A stretch of DNA of 64,000 nucleotides from Candidatus Desulforudis audaxviator MP104C (GTDB taxonomy: Bacteria > Bacillota > Desulfotomaculia > Desulfotomaculales > Desulforudaceae), in contig NC_010424.1 of NCBI RefSeq assembly GCF_000018425.1, positions 558,001-622,000 on the forward strand, read 5' to 3'. The translations under genes and the position numbers were made by a program. The notes beneath the pieces are model-generated. The model did not search any database, was not told the DNA's origin, and was given only the letters and a program-made list of their open reading frames with translations. Below are positions 17,337 through 64,000 of the stretch, piece by piece. The stretch's first letter is position 1. Each line of letters begins with the position of its first letter.

Positions 17337-19910
17337 CGGGTGGTGGATAGCGTGAACTCAGGACGGCGAACGGAAAAGACAGAGTGGGGACTGGGCTTTC
17401 TCGAGAGGATCGTCGACTCCCTCCCGGATGGCGTCCTTGCCGTCGACCGCGAAGGCAGGGCGGTCGTGTGGAACCGGGCCGCGGAAGAAATGACGGGAGT
17501 CAGGAAGGAAGAAGTGCTGGGCAGGGGCGAATACGCCTATGCCGTCCCGTTTTACGGGGAACCCAGGCCCATCCTCGTAAACATCCTGCTGGGCAACGGT
17601 AGGGAGTGGGAGCGGAAGTACGAGAAAATCGAGCGGAAGGGCCAGGTTCTTGTCGGCGAAGGTTTTGCCCCTTACGCTTACGGCGGCAGAGGCCTTCATT
17701 TCTGGACCATTGCGGCGCCAATCTATGATGAAGCGGGAAACTTGCTCGGGGCGGTCCAGTGCATCCGCGACATCGGCGAGCGCAAGCAGATGGAGGATAA
17801 ACTGAGGCACTGGAGCACCCATGACGCTCTCACCGGGCTTTACAACCGCGCCTTCTTCGAGGAGGAACTGCGGCGGCTGGAGAAAGGTCGCTCCTTTCCT
17901 GTAAGTCTCATCCTCTGCGACATCGACGACCTGAAGGTGGTTAACGACACCTTGGGCCACGCGCGGGGCGACGAGCTCTTACGCCGCGCCGCCAGGGTGA
18001 TCGCCAGCTGCGTCCGGGGGTCCGACCTGGTGGCCCGGGTCGGCGGAGATGAATTTGCCGCGGTGCTGCCGCAAACGGACCGGGCGGCGGCGGAGGAAGT
18101 GGCGCGGCGCATAACCCAGGCCGCGGCGGAGGATAATGCGGGGCGCCCCGAGTTCCCCCTGAGCATTTCGGTGGGCACGGCCACGGCCGAAGATCCGGGG
18201 CGTCCGCTGGTCGAGGCATACAAAGAGGCCGACGACGCCATGTACAGGGACAAGCTGGCCCGGGGGGCGGAGCCGCGAGAGGCCTGGAAGAAAGCGGACG
18301 AAATGGCCTTTCTCTACGACTTCTCCCGAACGGTACAAGAAACCCTCGAGGTAAGCGAGGTGGCGCAGCGGGCCCTGGAGGCGGTGCTGAAGGTGACCGG
18401 CGCCACCAGCGGGTCCGTGGTGATGCTGAGCGAGGAGATGCCGGGGGCCCTGGCTGCCGAGACGGCGGCGACCCTGGAGCCCGGCGACGAGTTCCGGGTC
18501 GTGCCGGCCGGCGAAGTCGTTGCCGCCGTCGAGCGGGAAACGCGCGCCGTGCACTTCGACAGCCGCCCCGGAGCCGGTACGGCCGCAGAAAGGCGGCCGG
18601 CGGTAGCCGTGCCCCTCATGGTAGAGGGCAAGGTGACGGGCGTGCTGACCATCGCGGGCCGGCCGGAAGGCGCGCCCTTCAGCGAGGAGGAGGCCGCTTT
18701 CTTGACCACCCTGGGCACCGGCCTGGGGCTGACGCTGCAAAACGCCCGCCTTTATCGTCAACTCCAGGCGAGGGCGGCCATGCTGGAACGCCTGATCGAG
18801 CTGGGACAGGCGCTGGCCGGCCACCTCGAGGAGAGCAAGGTGCTCGAAGCAGCTCTGGCTGGTGTAGGGGAGGTCCTTGGCGCGCAGTGGTATGCGCTGT
18901 GCCTGCTTGATGAGGAGACGGGCGAACTGGTGCTCAAGGCCAGCTCGGGCATGAGCGCGGAGCTGCAGGGAAGAGCGGCCCGTGTCCGGCCGGAGGGCAG
19001 CCTGCTGGGCGAAGTGCTCCGGAGAGGGGAGCCGGTGGCGGTGGACGATACGGCCGCCGCCGGGCCCGGCATGCAGCTGCCCTATTATGCGCCCGAGATG
19101 CGGGCGGTGGCTGTGGCGCCGGTAAGAGCGGGGGGCAAGATTCTGGGCACCCTGAAGGTGTACTCTCCAGTACCGCGACGCTGGTCAGAAGAAGAAGTTG
19201 GGTATCTGGCCACCGTGGCGGGCCAGGTGGGCTTGGCGCTGGAAAACGCCCGCCTGTACGCGTCCCTGCGCCAGTACTACCTGAGCACCCTGCAGGCGCT
19301 GGCAGCGGCCCTGGAGGCCAAGGACAAGTATACGCGGGGGCACTCCGTGCGGGTGGCCCGGCTGGGGCAGGCGTGTGCCCGGGCCCTGGGCTTAAGCGAT
19401 GAGGAGCGGGAGCAGCTCTACCTAGCCGCGCTCCTGCACGACATAGGCAAAATCGGCATACCCGAGAGCATTCTTTTAAAGCCCGGACCCCTTGAGCCGG
19501 CGGAGTGGGAGGAGGTTAGGAGCCACCCTGTGGTGGGAGAAAGGATCGTGGAGCCGGCCGGGTTTCATCCGCAGGTGGTTGCTGCCATACGGCACCACCA
19601 CGAGGACTGGAGTGGGGGTGGCTACCCGGACGGCCTGGCCGGGGAGGAGATACCCCTCCTGGCGCGCATTATCAGCGCGGCTGACGCTTACGACGCCATG
19701 ACCTCCGACAGGCCTTACCGCCGCGCACGCACGGCCGAAGAAGCAATCGAGGAGCTGCGCCGGGGAGCAGGGCGGCAGTTCGACCCGCGTGTGGTGGACG
19801 CGTTTCTGCGGATACCCGCTGCAGAAATGGAAGAAATTGGGGGGGGGGGGGGGTGCCTTGATCACCCTTCTCACCGAAGTTTTGTGCAGTTTGGCAGTTT
19901 AAGGAAATGA
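17328..19910 (+). CDS. PAS-GGDEF-GAF-GAF-HD-GYP signalling protein
   Basis: A protein of about 860 residues, no membrane helix. PAS (about 22-150), GGDEF domain (about 155-325, motif VGGDEFAAVLP intact near 240), GAF 1 (about 335-480), GAF 2 (about 490-650) and HD-GYP (about 665-840: LLHDIGKIGIPE near 703, HHHEDWSGGGYPDG near 756). It could both make and break cyclic di-GMP. GGDEF residues are canonical, and the HD-GYP motif reads GGGYP. Near the 3' end the frame crosses a 15-G run, so the last about 25 residues depend on its length. Start uncertain: TTG 17328 or GTG 17352. Confidence 0.88.
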   Translation: MGQRVVDSVNSGRRTEKTEWGLGFLERIVDSLPDGVLAVDREGRAVVWNRAAEEMTGVRKEEVLGRGEYAYAVPFYGEPRPILVNILLGNGREWERKYEKIERKGQVLVGEGFAPYAYGGRGLHFWTIAAPIYDEAGNLLGAVQCIRDIGERKQMEDKLRHWSTHDALTGLYNRAFFEEELRRLEKGRSFPVSLILCDIDDLKVVNDTLGHARGDELLRRAARVIASCVRGSDLVARVGGDEFAAVLPQTDRAAAEEVARRITQAAAEDNAGRPEFPLSISVGTATAEDPGRPLVEAYKEADDAMYRDKLARGAEPREAWKKADEMAFLYDFSRTVQETLEVSEVAQRALEAVLKVTGATSGSVVMLSEEMPGALAAETAATLEPGDEFRVVPAGEVVAAVERETRAVHFDSRPGAGTAAERRPAVAVPLMVEGKVTGVLTIAGRPEGAPFSEEEAAFLTTLGTGLGLTLQNARLYRQLQARAAMLERLIELGQALAGHLEESKVLEAALAGVGEVLGAQWYALCLLDEETGELVLKASSGMSAELQGRAARVRPEGSLLGEVLRRGEPVAVDDTAAAGPGMQLPYYAPEMRAVAVAPVRAGGKILGTLKVYSPVPRRWSEEEVGYLATVAGQVGLALENARLYASLRQYYLSTLQALAAALEAKDKYTRGHSVRVARLGQACARALGLSDEEREQLYLAALLHDIGKIGIPESILLKPGPLEPAEWEEVRSHPVVGERIVEPAGFHPQVVAAIRHHHEDWSGGGYPDGLAGEEIPLLARIISAADAYDAMTSDRPYRRARTAEEAIEELRRGAGRQFDPRVVDAFLRIPAAEMEEIGGGGGCLDHPSHRSFVQFGSLRK
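19839..19853. repeat. G15 homopolymer tract
   Basis: Fifteen consecutive G residues lie inside the 3' end of the GGDEF/HD-GYP gene. A change of one base alters the reading frame after the HD-GYP domain. It could be a slippage site or an assembly artefact. Confidence 0.9.
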
Positions 19911-34995: not shown

Positions 34996-36693
34996 ATGGC
35001 GCGAATCAGGGTTCTGGATGCCGACACCGTCTCCCGGATCGCGGCGGGCGAAGTAGTAGAGCGGCCGGCGGCCGTGGTCAAGGAGTTGGTGGAAAATGCA
35101 CTGGATGCTGGAGCCCGGGTGGTGCACATCGACATAGCCGCCGGTGGTCTGGAAAGGATCACGGTTACAGACGACGGGTGCGGAATGGAACCGGGCGACG
35201 CCGAACTGGCCCTCCAGCGGCACGCGACCAGCAAGATCACTGCGGCGGAAGACCTGGAGGCGGTCCGGACGCTTGGTTTCCGGGGAGAAGCTCTGCCCAG
35301 CATCGCGGCCGTTTCCCGCCTGACGCTCCGCACCCGGCCGGCGGCGTCGTCCGCCGGGACCGTGCTCGAAACTGAGGGCGGGCTGGTGCTTTCGGCGGGC
35401 GTGTCCGGTGGCCCCCCGGGAACGGTGGTGACGGTCCGCGACCTTTTCTTCAATACGCCGGCACGCAAGAAGTTTGTCCGGAGCGCCGCCCACGAGGGGG
35501 CGATGATCTCGGAGATGGTGGGCCGCCTGGCCCTGTCGCGGCCCGAGGTTGCTTTCCGCCTGACCGTCAACGGCCGCCAGGTGCTGGCGACGTCCGGGTC
35601 GGGTGACCTCCTGGATGCGATCGGTGCGGTGTTCGGGGCCGCGGTGGCCCGGGAAATGGTCCCGGTGCGGTTTGAGGAACGCGGGCTTGGGGTATCGGGT
35701 TACGTGGGCCGGCCCGGAGTGTCCCGGAGCAGCAGGCGGCACCAGGTGTTTTTCGTGAACGGCCGGTACATCCGCAGCGCGTATCTGGGGGCGGCGGCCG
35801 AGGAGTCACTGCATGGCGCGATGCCGGCAGGAAGGCACGCGGTACTGGTGCTGCATCTGTCGGTCGAGCCCGGAATGGTGGACGTCAACGTGCACCCGGC
35901 GAAGCACGAAGTCCGCTTCAGCCAGCCCCGGGACGTGTATGTCGTGGTGCACCGGGCCGTACGTGAGGCCCTGCACCGGGAGATACAAATCCCGGTGGAA
36001 GAGTGCGGACACCTGGAATCTGCCTGTTTTCCCGGTGCGGGCACCGGGTTCCGGATACCGGTGCAGGTGACCTTCCAAGGCGGGGAGCCGGAACTGCGCG
36101 AAGAAAGCACCGGTTACCAGGGCTTTCCGCAACTGCAGCCCCTGGGCTTTCTGCCGCCGGCCTACATCCTGGCCGGGGGGGCGGACGGGCTCTACATCCT
36201 GGACCAGCACGCGGCGCACGAGCGGGTCCTGTTCGAGCAGTACCTTCGTACGTTGGAGCAGTCCGCCGGGAAGCAGCTTCTGGTCCCGGTCATGGTGGAG
36301 ATACGGGGGCGGGAGGCGCAAACCCTCGAGGATTACGGCCCTTTCCTGCGGCAGGCCGGTTTTGAGGTCGATCCGTTCGGAGAAGGCGCCTATCTGATCC
36401 GGACGGTGCCTTCCTTCCTGCGGCCGGGTGCGGAGGCCGTCTTGTTGACCGACGTTTTGGACCGGCTGGCCGGGGAACGGCCGGTGGACGCGGACGCTTT
36501 CCGCCGGGTGGTGGCGGCGGTTCTGGCCTGCCACCGGGCGGTCCGCGGCGGGGACAAGCCAGCCGGCCCGGAGGCGGCCGCGCTTTTGACGGACCTCGGC
36601 CGTTGCGCGGAGCCATACTTGTGCCCGCACGGCCGTCCAACTCTGATCAGGATCGGTTTTCCGGAACTGGCGCGGAGGTTTCAGCGCGAATGA
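34996..36693 (+). CDS. mutL: DNA mismatch repair protein MutL
   Basis: The 565-residue protein has the GHKL ATPase head: IAAGEVVERPAAVVKELVEN, VTDDGCGMEPGD, HATSKI, TLGFRGEALPSIAAVS. The C-terminal domain has DQHAAHERVLFEQY, ACHRAVRGGD and CPHGRPTLIRI. The DQHAxxER, ACH and CPHGRP blocks place it with MutL endonucleases, although the metal-site motif reads DQHAAHERVLFE as in Bacillus. AGCAGGTG precedes ATG 34996. Confidence 0.95.
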   Translation: MARIRVLDADTVSRIAAGEVVERPAAVVKELVENALDAGARVVHIDIAAGGLERITVTDDGCGMEPGDAELALQRHATSKITAAEDLEAVRTLGFRGEALPSIAAVSRLTLRTRPAASSAGTVLETEGGLVLSAGVSGGPPGTVVTVRDLFFNTPARKKFVRSAAHEGAMISEMVGRLALSRPEVAFRLTVNGRQVLATSGSGDLLDAIGAVFGAAVAREMVPVRFEERGLGVSGYVGRPGVSRSSRRHQVFFVNGRYIRSAYLGAAAEESLHGAMPAGRHAVLVLHLSVEPGMVDVNVHPAKHEVRFSQPRDVYVVVHRAVREALHREIQIPVEECGHLESACFPGAGTGFRIPVQVTFQGGEPELREESTGYQGFPQLQPLGFLPPAYILAGGADGLYILDQHAAHERVLFEQYLRTLEQSAGKQLLVPVMVEIRGREAQTLEDYGPFLRQAGFEVDPFGEGAYLIRTVPSFLRPGAEAVLLTDVLDRLAGERPVDADAFRRVVAAVLACHRAVRGGDKPAGPEAAALLTDLGRCAEPYLCPHGRPTLIRIGFPELARRFQRE

Positions 36694-52542: not shown

Positions 52543-53430
52543 TCACGTGCCGCGGCTGATTTCCCGGAATTCTCCGCGTAAAAGATTCGGCGGCCGCTTA
52601 GCAGCGATGACTTCTCCACCGGCCTGGATCCCCCCGCCGGCCCGGATTATTCTGCCGGCCTGGATCCCCCCGCCGGCTTCGATATCCTCGTCGGCATGAA
52701 TGTCCACACCGGCCCGGATGTGCCTGACGGTCTTGATATTCCCGCCGGCCTGGATATTTTTGCCGGCCCAGATGGCCCAGCCGGCCTTGATGTCCTCGCC
52801 GGCTTGGAGGTCCCCACCGGCCTGGATACTTTCGCCGGCCTCGATGTTCTCGCCGGCCTGAATGCACCCGCCGGCCTGGACGCTCGCGCCGGCTCGGATG
52901 CGCTCGCCGACCAGAACACCACCGACCTCGATTTCCCCGCCGGCCTGGATGCTTTCGCCGGCTTCGACGTCCTGGCTGGCGAGGATTTCCCCGCCGGCTT
53001 GGATGCTTTCGCCGACCTTGATATTTCCACCGGCCCGGACGTTCTCGCCGGTCCGGATATTCTCGCCGGTGAGGGTACCGCCGGCCTCGATGTCCTTGCC
53101 GGCCTGGATGTCCTTGCCGGCCTGGATGTCCTTGCCCGCCTGGATTCCCCCGCCGACCAAGAGCGACTTGGCGGCCTTGATCGAGCTTTTTGCAACAAGC
53201 GAGCCCGCGAAAAACAAGTTCTCAACGACCAAATCCTCGATCTCCATAACGGCGCTCGTGAGGCCTGCTTCCCGCATCAACCAGACCGCCCAATCAGCAC
53301 GGTCTTCCACAGCCAACATGTCCAAAACGGCCTGGTATTCTGCGCCGCACGGGAAGCGATCCCTGAACGTCTTCAGCATCTCGGCGGGGGCTTCTCTTTC
53401 AAGGAGCCATTCCGTCGTGATAATCGTCAC
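52543..53430 (-). CDS. hexapeptide-repeat beta-helix protein
   Basis: 295 residues. A unique N-terminal domain (about 1-85: TTEWLLEREAPAEMLKTFRD, DWAVWLMREAG) precedes about 30 six-residue repeats of the type x-x-I-x-A-G (GKDIQAGKDIQAGKDIEAGG and so on) up to about 280. The spacing suggests a left-handed beta-helix, built from near-identical 18-bp DNA units. No signal peptide. Function unknown; could be a structural, scaffold or polymer-forming protein (inference). AAGGAGG lies 8 bp before ATG 53430. Confidence 0.75.
   Translation of the reverse strand: MTIITTEWLLEREAPAEMLKTFRDRFPCGAEYQAVLDMLAVEDRADWAVWLMREAGLTSAVMEIEDLVVENLFFAGSLVAKSSIKAAKSLLVGGGIQAGKDIQAGKDIQAGKDIEAGGTLTGENIRTGENVRAGGNIKVGESIQAGGEILASQDVEAGESIQAGGEIEVGGVLVGERIRAGASVQAGGCIQAGENIEAGESIQAGGDLQAGEDIKAGWAIWAGKNIQAGGNIKTVRHIRAGVDIHADEDIEAGGGIQAGRIIRAGGGIQAGGEVIAAKRPPNLLRGEFREISRGT
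52615..53165. repeat. 18-bp tandem repeats in the beta-helix gene
   Basis: About 30 units related to GCCGGCCTGGATGTCCTT lie in tandem. Three consecutive units near 53098-53150 are identical, a sign of recent expansion. Confidence 0.85.
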
Positions 53431-53700
53431 TATTTTTCCTCCTTAAAATTCTGGATCCCGGGGTCAGGTGTCTAAATTGAGCAAAAAAGAGCGGCAGATT
53501 TGAATGGTGTCGGAGAACCCCAGCAGCGCTTGCAAAAAAATAGTTAACACTTATTAAAATTTTTGTTATTGTTTTCGCAGACACACCACAACTATCAGAC
53601 CGCTATATGACAAAGACGCTGGGTGAAAAGAAGAGAACTTTGGCTCTAGAGTTTATATGTATGGTAAAGTTTAGTCAAGAGGTAAGGGGCGGATGCTGTG
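53431..53700. other. AT-richer intergenic region
   Basis: 270 bp with no gene between divergently transcribed genes. AT-rich boxes (TTATATGTATGGTAAAGT near 53653-53672) may hold promoters, but none is near consensus. Confidence 0.4.
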
Positions 53701-54156
53701 ATGAGCCGGCTGGATTACCCGGTTTTCAGCGTACCGAGCTTGGAGGCGTTTCTGGCCCGGCTTACGCCTGAGATTGAGGCGGTGGATCACCACTGGCTGA
53801 TAGAGACCGTGGGGCTCTCGGAAAAGGAGGCCGGTCCACTTATTGCGGGGCTTTGTATCCTGGGTTTTGCGGAGCCGAATGGGCGCCTTACCGCCGAGGG
53901 GAGGTTATTGGCCGCCTCCGACACGCGGGGCACGGCTTTCGGGCGAGCATGCGCCAGAGTGTACGCCGAGATGCTCGATTCTCTCCTGCAACACGAGGAG
54001 TTCCATACGGACCATGTGCACCAGTTCCTGAGTCAACGCGGGATCAAGCACATGAAAGAGCGCCAGAAGACGGCGCTGGTGTTTAGATTTCTGGTATTGA
54101 ACAGCGACCGCGAGGACTTGATAAGACGTTACAGCACGAAGAAGTGTTTCGCTTAG
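53701..54156 (+). CDS. winged-helix-like protein of unknown function
   Basis: 151 residues: SVPSLEAFLARLTPEIEAVD, HHWLIETVGLSEKEAGPLIA, GLCILGFAEPNGRLTAEGRL form a winged-helix-like start as in DUF5343-type proteins. A helical C-terminal part follows (FGRACARVYAEMLDSLLQ, KTALVFRFLVLNSDREDLI). Downstream sequence to 54238 is non-coding. Function unknown; a regulator is possible. Confidence 0.6.
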   Translation: MSRLDYPVFSVPSLEAFLARLTPEIEAVDHHWLIETVGLSEKEAGPLIAGLCILGFAEPNGRLTAEGRLLAASDTRGTAFGRACARVYAEMLDSLLQHEEFHTDHVHQFLSQRGIKHMKERQKTALVFRFLVLNSDREDLIRRYSTKKCFA

Positions 54157-54238: not shown

Positions 54239-54487
54239 TCACGGACGGACGCTCCCCAAAACGGTTTGATCAGCCGGTTCGCTGTCTCTCTCCAATCCTC
54301 CTTCTCCGGCGCTCAACTTCACCATGAAAGGGTAATCCTTATGAGTAGTGGTCACCACGATCACAATTGTGGTTGGGCTATACTTGTTGCCCACATCGTT
54401 TTGAACGACGACGGCGGGCCGACAGCCCGCCTGCTCACTTCCCCGCGCCGGGTTAAAGTCCGTCAGGAAGACACCGCCACGCTTAAT
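54239..54487 (-). pseudogene. MazF/PemK-like toxin gene, 3'-degenerate
   Basis: The frame reads IKRGGVFLTDFNPARGSEQA, then RPAVVVQNDVGNKYSPTTIV, the MazF beta-barrel start. After GGLERD the usual DSvillEQiRTiDk block is missing and the frame stops early (82 residues instead of about 115). There is no ATG/GTG/TTG; an ATT after GCGGAGGTG would be the start. Probably inactive. Confidence 0.6.
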
Positions 54488-54687
54488 CTCTGCCGCGAAA
54501 CACCTCCGCTTGCAGCGGAAGGAAAAGCTCAGCGTCCGCTTTGTGAAGCTCGGCCATCTCAAGATAGCCTTGCCTGAGCCTGACCTCCAGTTCCTCCTGC
54601 TCCGCACGCCGCAGCAGCTCGGCTACAGCGCCGCTTCTGCTAGGCACGGAGATGCCCTTCAGGCGCGCGGCCCGGGTTATGGGTTTT
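54483..54687 (-). pseudogene. MazE-like antitoxin, 5'-truncated
   Basis: The minus-strand frame SGAVAELLRRAEQEELEVRL, RQGYLEMAELHKADAELFLP, QAEVFRGRD and stop is the helical tail of a ribbon-helix-helix MazE-type antitoxin. It overlaps the toxin start by 5 bp, as intact pairs do. Its DNA-binding N-terminus is missing where the ISLre2 sequence begins. Confidence 0.55.
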
Positions 54688-55686
54688 CTAGTACCGGGGA
54701 TTCACTGGATGACCGTCTGGTCTAAGGTTCAGGATGCTGGAGAAAAGGCCGCCCGGGATGCTGAGGCACTACGCGAGGCCGTCTTTGAAGACGGTGTGGT
54801 TCCTGAAGGCGGCAAGGAGGTTCGGGAGTTATCCATTGAAGCCGATGGTGTAGTAATACCCTTGCAGCGGTCGCCCAAGGCGTTTGGTGAGATCAAGCTG
54901 TTTATCGGCTACGAGGGCAGGGAACAAAAGACCCGGAAACTGGTGAACCGTTACACGGTGGCCACCGCCAGGGGCAGCCGGGTGGCTTGGGAAGACACCG
55001 GGGCGGCCTTCGGCCACAAGTGGGACCTTAGCAGGGTAGAGCGGATCCGCATTGGTGGGGACGGCGCCGAGTGGATCAAACAAGGCCTGGAGATGTTCCC
55101 CGGGGCGACTTACCACCTTGACCCCTTCCACCTGCGCCGGCGTTTAACCGAGGCTTTAAGTTACAGCAGCAACGTCTATGAAACTGTCACCGAAGGGTTA
55201 GCCGAGCTAAACCAAGATGCGGTAGTTTCCGCCTTGGACCAGGCGATTCGGGTCAACCGGGGTGCACGCCGTAACGGGATCATGCGGCTTAAGGAGTATC
55301 TCCTGGCTAACTGGCAAGGTATCGCCGCCTTGCCGGAGGGAGACCGTTTAGGTGCGATCGAGGGCCAGGTCCGTCACACCATCGCCAGGCGAACAAAGCG
55401 GATTGGGGCGCGTTGGAGCCCGGCCGGTGCGGAACGGATGGGACGCCTGTTAGCGGTACGGGCTAATGATGAGCTGGACAGATACGTGGTACACTCGGAA
55501 CCCCGGTTCGACCTACTGAAAAAGGCTGTCGGAGCCGAGGCAATCCAACTGCCCAAACGCTTCGGCAAAGATCCCGAGGCCTGGCTTCAAGCCAACGTGC
55601 CCGCCCTTGAAGGACCGCATGCCGGAAAACACTGGGTCAAGCACATAGTAAGAGAGATTAGTTCACCGAGGTGGTCTACGGTCTAA
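54670..55686 (+). pseudogene. ISLre2-family transposase, N-terminally truncated
   Basis: About 330 residues of a UPF0236/ISLre2 transposase remain: FLVPGIHWMTVWSKVQ, LSIEADGVVIPLQRS, RIRIGGDGAEWIKQGLEMFP, YHLDPFHLRRRL and a C-terminal REISSPRWSTV. The first about 130-150 residues (present in remnant form at 63340-63880) are missing. The 24-bp repeat at 55712 probably marks the element end. Confidence 0.75.
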
Positions 55687-55711
55687 TTCAAATTAAATCG
55701 GCTGGGAGATC

Positions 55712-55735
55712 GCCTACTAAGTCTTGACACGGACT
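55712..55735 (+). repeat. 24-bp inverted repeat, left copy
   Basis: GCCTACTAAG-TCTT-GACACGGACT; 23 of 24 positions match the inverted copy at 56455-56478. It lies 26 bp after the transposase stop, as expected for an IS terminal repeat. Confidence 0.8.
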
Positions 55736-55812
55736 CGTTCTAAGATGAGCTTCCCTTCTTTTCCCCGGTGTGGTAAGATTAGTTATAGACTCTTCAGCAG
55801 GAGGCTTAACTC

Positions 55813-56442
55813 GTGGAAGAGCTTTTACAGCAAATCCTTAATAAGTTGGAAGATCTGAGCCGGGGCCAGCAGGCCCAAAATCAACGGCTGCAACGCTTAG
55901 AGGATGGCCAGGAGGCTTTGCGCACTGACGTGGCCGGCCTCCAAGCGGGCCAGGAGGCTTTGCGCACTGACGTGGCCGGCCTCCAAGCGGGCCAGGAGGC
56001 TTTGCGCACTGACGTGGCCGGCCTCCAAGCGGGCCAGGAGGCTCTGCGCACTGACGTGGCCGGCCTCCAAGCGGGCCAGGAGGCTCTGCGCACTGACGTG
56101 GCCGGCCTCCAAGCGGGCCAGGAGGCTCTGCGCGCTGACGTGGTTAGCCTCCAAGCGGGCCAGGAGGCTCTGCGCGCTGACGTGGTTGGCCTCCAAGCGG
56201 GCCAAGAAGCTCTGCAAAACCGCCTTGTCGCACTGGGAGTCCGCCTGGAAAATGAAGTCTTTGAAAAGATCAGGGCACTCTTCGACGCCCGCCAGGTTCA
56301 TCTGGACTACTTCGAGAGCCTCCGGGATGCGCTATCCCGGGTGGAAGAAAACCTCGACCACCTGATCCGCAGAGAACGCCAGCAGGACATCCGCCTTGAT
56401 GAACACGAGCGGGAAATCCGTCTGCTCCGTTTGCGAAAGTAA
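55813..56442 (+). CDS. coiled-coil protein with 14-residue tandem repeats
   Basis: 209 residues. About eight 14-residue units of LQAGQEALRTDVAG (residues about 35-140) are coded by near-identical 42-bp units; flanking parts are LLQQILNKLEDLSRGQQAQN and HLIRRERQQDIRLDEHEREI. The hydrophobic spacing gives a long trimeric-type coiled coil. AGGAGG lies upstream of GTG 55813. Flanked by 24-bp inverted repeats. Role unknown; similar proteins serve as spacers or scaffolds. Confidence 0.75.
   Translation: MEELLQQILNKLEDLSRGQQAQNQRLQRLEDGQEALRTDVAGLQAGQEALRTDVAGLQAGQEALRTDVAGLQAGQEALRTDVAGLQAGQEALRTDVAGLQAGQEALRADVVSLQAGQEALRADVVGLQAGQEALQNRLVALGVRLENEVFEKIRALFDARQVHLDYFESLRDALSRVEENLDHLIRRERQQDIRLDEHEREIRLLRLRK
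55907..56219. repeat. 42-bp tandem repeats in the coiled-coil gene
   Basis: About seven and a half units beginning GGCCAGGAGGCTTTGCGCAC, nearly identical to each other; units at the 3' end have drifted (GCTGACGTGGTT). Copy number may vary between strains. Confidence 0.85.
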
Positions 56443-56454
56443 GCTATTTCTTCA

Positions 56455-56478
56455 AGTCCGTGTCAAAACTTAGTAGGC
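56455..56478 (-). repeat. 24-bp inverted repeat, right copy
   Basis: Reverse complement of the repeat at 55712-55735 with one mismatch. The two copies enclose a 719-bp interior holding only the coiled-coil gene. Confidence 0.8.
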
Positions 56479-56556
56479 TTTGTTTTGGGTATTCGCTGTT
56501 GAGGCTTGTTTAAGCTTCGACGTATCGAGTTTTGAAGTTTTTGAGGTCTGACCCCC

Positions 56557-57050
56557 GGTTCCCGCGCCGCTGGTGGACTACCGCCGCGGAATGGCGGTGA
56601 GGCGCGCCGGGTCTTCGAACTCCTGGCCCCGCTGCTGCTTCAGCGGATGGTCTGGCCGCCGGGAGGCCTTGTGGCGCTGGGTCAAGGCGCACCCCGCAGT
56701 AAGGGATTACGCCCGGTTCCGGGCCGTGGCGGAGCGGCAGCGTGCCGGCTGGCCGGCGTGGCCCGAACGGATGCGGGACGGCGCTCTTCGGGAGGGGGAC
56801 TACGACCCGGAGGCGGAGCGCTACCACCTGTACGTGCAGTGGCCGGCGCACGAGCAGTTCGAGGCCCTTTCGGCTCGAACCCGAAAGCCGGGGTTCGGGC
56901 TATACCTGGATTTGCCGCTGGGGGTGCATGGCGGCGGGTATGACACCTGGCGGGAGCGGGACGCCTCGGCTTCGTCTGGGTCCGCCTGGTTTTCTGGAAT
57001 ACTTCGTCCGCTTGTTATTGGCCATGCCGGATCGACACGAGCTGCGGTGA
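56557..57050 (+). pseudogene. 4-alpha-glucanotransferase (malQ) remnant
   Basis: Pieces of GH77 amylomaltase appear in several frames: LVDYRRGMAVRR, then GRREALWRWVKAHPAVRDYA, AERYHLYVQWPAHEQFEALS, GFGLYLDLPLGVHGGGYDTW, and a C-terminal FLEYFVRLLLAMPDRHELR in another frame. At least two frameshifts and an internal deletion are needed to join them. No catalytic core remains. Confidence 0.7.
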
Positions 57051-57116
57051 GGCAAGGCGCGAGATAAGGCGAATAGGTTCGGGTGTGTTTTGCCGGACAT
57101 GGACGGCGGTGCTTCG

Positions 57117-57530
57117 CTAGTTAAAGGACTTGGGGTTTGTCAGCCGGCGCTCCAGGGCGCTCCACTCGTAAGCACCTACGGGGTCCAGGCGCCGGAGTTC
57201 GGCGATGTACGGCTGTGCTTCCGCGGCACGGCCCTGCTGTACCAGGAGGTCGGCCAGGTGCAGCAGCGCCCGCAGGTACGGGCGGTTTTCCAGGAGGTGG
57301 TGCGGGTGGCTCTCCCCATCCCACACAAGTTCGCAGCGGCCCACTTCCACCGCGCGCCGCAGCAGGGGCTCGGCCCGGGCCGGCTCCTTTAGGTCGTCAA
57401 ACAGAAAGATCCCGTAGTAGGACAGGGCCATAACGCAGTCGGGGTCGAAGTCCAACGCCCGTTCCATGGCCCGCTCAAACCGAAAAGGGAAGCTCTCGGC
57501 CCAGTGATCCAGCAACTGCTGAGGCCCCGG
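57117..57530 (-). pseudogene. TPR protein fragment
   Basis: RFERAMERALDFDPDCVMAL, LRRAVEVGRCELVWDGESHP and LADLLVQQGRAAEAQPYIAE form tetratricopeptide-like helix pairs and end at a normal stop. The 5' side joins nitroreductase sequence in the same frame, so no proper start remains. Confidence 0.55.
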
Positions 57531-63339: not shown

Positions 63340-63880
63340 GCTGGTAGATAGTTGGGCGTCAAGAACATAATGTCGCCCAAATCTCTTTATAACCATCACT
63401 ATCACGCCCCAAGGCAGCCACCAGGTATTTGTCCAGGTGGAAAAGGTCCAAAACAAAGACGCTCTGCGGTAGAAACTCCAACCCTTTCTTTATCCACCTG
63501 TCTTCCGGTAGGAAAGCTCCACCGCCTCTTCTAAGGATTGGGCCTTAACCAGAGGATCAACCCGTACGTGCGGCCCGTAACCCGCTAACCGGTCTATCAG
63601 GTGCATCCGCTCCCCATTCTCTTTGTGCCAGTAATAGGTCCGCTTGTAGCTGACCAAACCGAAAAGGGTGAGCACTTCTTTGGGGTCATCCCGCCGCTCT
63701 ATCTGCCAGCCAGCCGCTCCTCCCGGTGCTCCCGTAAATAGGCGTCTTTCGCCTCTAAAACCTCGCTCAGGATCTCTTGCCCTAAGCCGTCGAGTTCCTG
63801 CCGGAGCCTCTCCTGGAAGCTTATAAAGTCAATCCCGTTCTCTTCTTGAGTGGTTGTTTTATCAGTTGCTCGCCGTTACA
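63340..63880 (-). pseudogene. ISLre2-family transposase remnant, N-terminal and central parts
   Basis: FISFQERLRQELDGLGQEIL, YLREHREERLAGWQ, then after a frameshift near 63705 VLTLFGLVSYKRTYYWHKEN, SLEEAVELSYRKTG, and, after a deletion, DRWIKKGLEFLPQSVFVLDL, FHLDKYLVAALGRD. These are consecutive ISLre2 segments with internal loss. The C-terminal half is missing. Confidence 0.7.
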
Positions 63881-64000
63881 AGAACGGTGAGGTCTCTCTT
63901 CTTTCTCTCCTTCCTCAGCTCCTACAAAATTCCTACAGTAACTTTACACTAAAAGCCATTTGCGATGTTCGGGAGAAAAGATAAATAGGCTGTTTTAGAG
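63881..64000. other. window edge, no gene seen
   Basis: This AT-richer DNA may be the outer part of the ISLre2 remnant. Its terminal repeat is not recognisable here. Confidence 0.3.

Follow-up and report, generated by a model that had tools for sequence, protein, structure and literature searches.

The window analysed here is a 64,000-nucleotide stretch of the Candidatus Desulforudis audaxviator MP104C genome. In it, a truncated insertion sequence (IS), a coiled-coil repeat gene and an unattached IS end lie next to one another, as listed below.

54639 to 55734, plus strand: 5'-truncated ISLre2-family IS (bases 477-1572 of the 1572-bp element), with 99.8% identity to a full-length copy over IS bases 477-1572
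54652 to 55686, plus strand: C-terminal part of the transposase, a 344-aa ORF (PF06782, 108.5 bits; NF033529 positions 49-382)
55713 to 55734, plus strand: IRR, the right terminal inverted repeat of the IS; the same end occurs in 13 copies and its tip is set by target duplications
55751 to 55779, plus strand: proposed sigma-A promoter of the coiled-coil gene, suggested by a position-specific signal over the 13 copies
55813 to 56442, plus strand: coiled-coil repeat gene, an ORF with 42-bp repeats encoding 209 aa with 14-aa repeats
56456 to 56478, minus strand: orphan IRR-like end (the orphan arm), with 1 mismatch in 23 and no attached IS body
56526 to 56964, plus strand: remains of genes to the right of the orphan arm, comprising a dispersed repeat and a 4-alpha-glucanotransferase (malQ) fragment, assigned by sequence matches

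A sequence-only reading of this DNA had described 24-bp inverted repeats bracketing the coiled-coil gene, and the pair is real. The arms at 55712-55735 and 56455-56478 lie 719 nt apart and are complementary at 23 of 24 positions, compared to best 24-mer matches of 14-17 in 38 random placements of the same geometry in the window (chance per position ~2.6e-13, assuming equal base frequencies). The actual repeat is ~22-23 bp long, and the terminal matching pair (T 55735 and A 56455) is flanking DNA beyond the IS tip. The same reading placed the transposase outside the left repeat; its ORF does end at 55686 on the plus strand, but the gap is 25 nt rather than 26. The repeat itself had been taken as separate from the IS, and this does not hold: the IS ends with the left arm, and the sequence shared by all 13 copies runs to this end.

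We searched the genome (2,349,476 bp in one contig; published as 2.35 Mbp, PMC8443664, and reported with 35 encoded transposases, PMC4406082) with transposase-region DNA and found 13 IS copies, every one ending in the repeat. Placed side by side, the copies have a common sequence through ...TTGACACGGAC and diverge directly after it (n=13); the shared right end also reads ...CCTACTAAGTCTTGACACGGAC, followed by differing DNA (n=13). Ten copies are complete, with lengths of 1567-1572 bp, first bases GTGAGTGTAAGGTTTAAGTAGG, and left and right terminal inverted repeats that differ from each other. Exact 9-bp target duplications lie directly outside both ends in eight of these ten, and the other two have a 7/9 duplication and none, respectively. 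The tip that adjoins a duplicated target is the outside of an IS, and because the exact duplications in these eight copies put GTCC outermost, the tip and the polarity of the element are fixed.

The intact transposase is a 474-aa open frame, intact copies of which are present in the genome. NCBIfam model NF033529 identifies the transposase of the window copy as ISLre2 (279.5 bits, cut-off 200). The genome's IS has in common with the ISLre2 family an NF033529/PF06782 transposase in one ORF, imperfect terminal repeats of ~22 bp and 9-bp duplications, the last being published ISLre2 behaviour (PMC8024623). The family has p-MULT 3 Mutator-like transposases and is grouped with the TnGBS ICEs (Guerillot et al. 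2014, PMC3942029). A further ISLre2 trace, a degenerate IRR-like end with no transposase match, lies near G000:C1:1799556 (L065).

The left arm in the window is the IRR of an ISLre2-family copy that lacks bases 1-476, with the junction at 54639. Its outer tip, GGAC at 55734, faces right, toward the coiled-coil gene. This copy is a remnant and no functional IS, because it has the right terminal repeat only; its left repeat is absent and its transposase is N-terminally truncated. Compared to the ISLre2 family, the window copy is thus without its left 476 bp and left repeat, and there is an additional, orphan right end at a distance of 721 bp, in inverted orientation. Adjacent to the junction is a PemK/MazF-like toxin gene (54239-54647, minus strand), whose antitoxin appears to have lost its N-terminus, since the antitoxin-like ORF upstream of the toxin gene meets the IS junction at 54639.

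ISLre2 and TnGBS elements are reported to insert 15-17 bases upstream of a sigma-A -35 box, 16 bp from IR-right (PMC3942029), and the IS of this genome shares the oriented insertion ~16 bp upstream of the sigma-A -35 on the IR-right side. Over the 13 copies, the mean match to TTGACA peaked at 3.77 of 6 at offset 16 from the IRR tip, compared to at most 2.69 among 2000 random sets; no comparable TTGACA peak was seen at the left ends of the copies. A sigma-A-like -35 box begins 17-18 bases past the IRR tip in most of the 13 copies, the coiled-coil locus included, and a -10-like hexamer follows 17-18 bp further on in most of them (L056 is the clearest exception). This promoter-upstream insertion preference is already published and is matched here, and it explains the position of the left repeat. 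The candidate promoter of the coiled-coil gene comprises TTCCCT (55751-55756), a 17-bp spacer and TAAGAT (55774-55779), with the -35 beginning at base 17 past the IRR tip; an AGGAGG ribosome-binding-like site and then a GTG start at 55813 lie downstream of TAAGAT. It is weak by consensus (3/6 for the -35 and 4/6 for the -10) and absent from a strict promoter scan, and it is its position that suggests a promoter.

Across the genome, the repeat has 14 close matches, of which 13 are IS right ends and one, the orphan arm, is unattached to any IS copy. The sequence-only reading had named occurrence of the repeat at transposase ends only as an outcome that would speak against a gene-carrying unit, and this is essentially what the search returned, with the orphan arm as the sole other occurrence. 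The outer tip of the orphan arm, GTCC at 56456, faces left, toward the gene. We found no IS sequence match to its right in 56479-57140 and no promoter at the expected distance in its outward flank, and the sequence sought as its target duplication partner, TTTCTTCAA, has a single further occurrence in the window, at 35445, beside no IS end. Other origins for the arm were also considered. As for an end of another known element, the A-variant of the arm had no exact match in genome_contigs, and neither variant was exactly matched in viral_contigs, both being collections from which records of this genome were possibly left out. A terminator or RNA structure was likewise rejected (fold z-score -0.96, no terminator called there). 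Pairing of the two arms within one coiled-coil mRNA is rejected by inference, because the left arm would lie upstream of the proposed promoter.

The coiled-coil gene has relatives in 42 of the 60 related genomes searched, although counts of this kind are inflated by coiled-coil repeats. The best homologs have a common N-terminal (M/V)E.(L/V)L.QIL..L motif, 11-14-aa tandem repeats in variable number and a common C-terminal LENEV.(D/E)KI.ALFDAR region, and bracketing repeats were found at none of the 16 homologous loci checked. The protein resembles DUF7491-like coiled-coil repeat proteins, with a Pfam DUF7491 match over residues 6-84, but differs from others of this kind in that its gene contains successive, almost identical 42-bp repeats and adjoins an IS remnant. 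A phage gene was considered and rejected, phages yielding a single weak SMC-like match. The protein is expected to form long helices, which have no bearing on mobility, and from its sequence one might guess that it is a multimeric coiled-coil scaffold. The gene belongs to the ordinary chromosome, with a broken transposon beside it, and is not transposon cargo.

Because both tips face the gene, it lies outside both IS ends, and the two ends are therefore unable to carry it. This bears directly on the proposal of the sequence-only reading that 55712-56478 could be a small passenger or MITE-like element, with the coiled-coil gene as its cargo and the ISLre2 transposase mobilising the element in trans. 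The gene is indeed flanked by inverted repeats that match at 23/24, intact transposase copies exist elsewhere in the genome, and, as in MITEs and trans-mobilised non-autonomous IS derivatives, the short inverted repeats are related to a genome-resident IS. We nonetheless consider such an element extremely improbable: its arms are reversed, with GTCC tips facing the gene and inner sides facing outward, whereas a MITE has IS tips at its outer edges, and both arms are right ends, but the IS works with a left and a right end that differ from each other. Nor does the unit behave as a mobile insertion present in multiple copies, since a search for further copies found the 767-bp unit only once in the genome; unlike in MITEs, the gene inside belongs to a family found without the repeats (as at the 16 homologous loci), and no target duplication would be expected at the left edge, because 55712 falls inside the IS. 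The unit is absent from the syntenic place in two genomes of the same genus, G001 and G002, an absence that follows from a wider synteny break. A composite transposon has two complete flanking IS copies; here the left one is truncated and the right one is 23 bp.

In G001 and G002, the hyd genes, the FapA-like gene and the gene at 53698 are retained at ~75-93% identity. What follows in both includes an ABC transporter, gntR and murT, and the window contains none of these; conservation of the locus ends at 54156, and no clean empty site is readable. On the other side, the malQ fragment (56562-56964) shares 92% identity with C1:923307-923706 elsewhere in the genome, and beyond it lie ORFs with partial TPR/nitroreductase and beta-lactamase matches. 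This stretch is a rearranged one. The ~30-bp repeat at 56526-56561 (TTTTGAAGTTTTTGAGGTCTGACCCC) has four other copies in the genome, with unrelated flanks, and is possibly a REP-type or IS-end sequence. Several further observations concern this neighbourhood and its relatives. A minus-strand gene at 52543-53430 encodes hexapeptide-type repeats (IQAGxx) with a FapA beta-solenoid match, and is found at 75-80% identity in the same place in the two congeners. G002 has a NiFe hydrogenase large and small subunit pair after the conserved 53698 gene (L152 8602-10472), with no ortholog in the window's genome (best matches 26-36%) or in the G001 stretch. A second, diverged ISLre2 remnant lies in the window at 63368-63953 (minus strand), with a partial transposase and a left-end-like sequence at 63932-63953. 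Genome G005 has a single-copy IRR-like tip, followed a short way on by an inverted end that matches it in part, and no transposase (L154 ~19140-19300), possibly a small decayed ISLre2 derivative; a candidate ISLre2-derived MITE in G005, at C2:62139, is single-copy.

Very probably, the inverted pair represents right ends of ISLre2 type that face each other, with an ordinary chromosomal gene between them; two opposing IS ends left after rearrangement, which the sequence-only reading had offered as its alternative, is thus the best supported interpretation. The copy whose IRR forms the left arm, now with its left 476 bp gone, would have inserted in a fixed orientation ~16 bp upstream of the sigma-A promoter of the coiled-coil gene. 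An oppositely oriented second ISLre2-type element may once have stood right of the gene and lost its body by deletion or rearrangement, with 23 bp of its IRR remaining, and the same event may have left the malQ and beta-lactamase fragments and broken synteny after 54156. It follows from the geometry that a transposase using these inward-tipped ends would leave the gene in place. A lost second copy that retained its tip is the simplest account of the orphan arm. Against it, no IS body lies beside the arm and no target duplication partner was found, the outward flank has no promoter at the expected distance, and the arm breaks off precisely where the conserved repeat has its inner edge, a position that random deletion would not favour; the weak consensus match of the coiled-coil gene promoter also counts against this explanation as a whole.

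The orphan arm could instead be the right end of a diverged ISLre2 relative, such as the element of the remnant at 63368-63953, an origin we regard as unlikely. The ISLre2 relatives L116, L121 and L122 keep their tips (22 bp) while their interiors differ, and the remnant has a portion at 63368-63708 in matching orientation, with its 3' part absent, and a left-end-like 16/22 match at 63932-63953. However, the orphan matches the active IS at 22 of 23 positions, closer than expected of a diverged element's end, 6.9 kb of unrelated genes separate it from the remnant, and no 9-bp duplication links the arm and the remnant end. It is more doubtful still that the arm arose by aberrant one-ended or end-targeted transposition of the neighbouring copy, with no decayed second copy. 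The IRR sequence is present alone and stops at the inner edge of the repeat, 721 bp from the related IRR and in inverted orientation, and circular intermediates have been proposed for the ISLre2 transposase superfamily (PMC3942029). Yet the genome has no second clean solo IRR, and its only other solo site, at 1799556, is degenerate. That ISLre2-type transposition can, more generally, produce or leave behind a single inverted right end close to a resident copy by such an event seems slightly less probable again; if true, a neighbouring gene could come to lie between two IRR tips that point inward, with no second element involved.

Overall, the locus is of an ordinary, already known kind: an IS remnant beside a typical target, together with an orphan IS end. 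Inward-facing pairs of IS ends are easily mistaken for a gene-carrying element, and it is the tip, fixed from target duplications, that decides between the two. The 13 copies also provide an independent view of the ISLre2 promoter-upstream insertion preference, in deep-subsurface Desulforudis.
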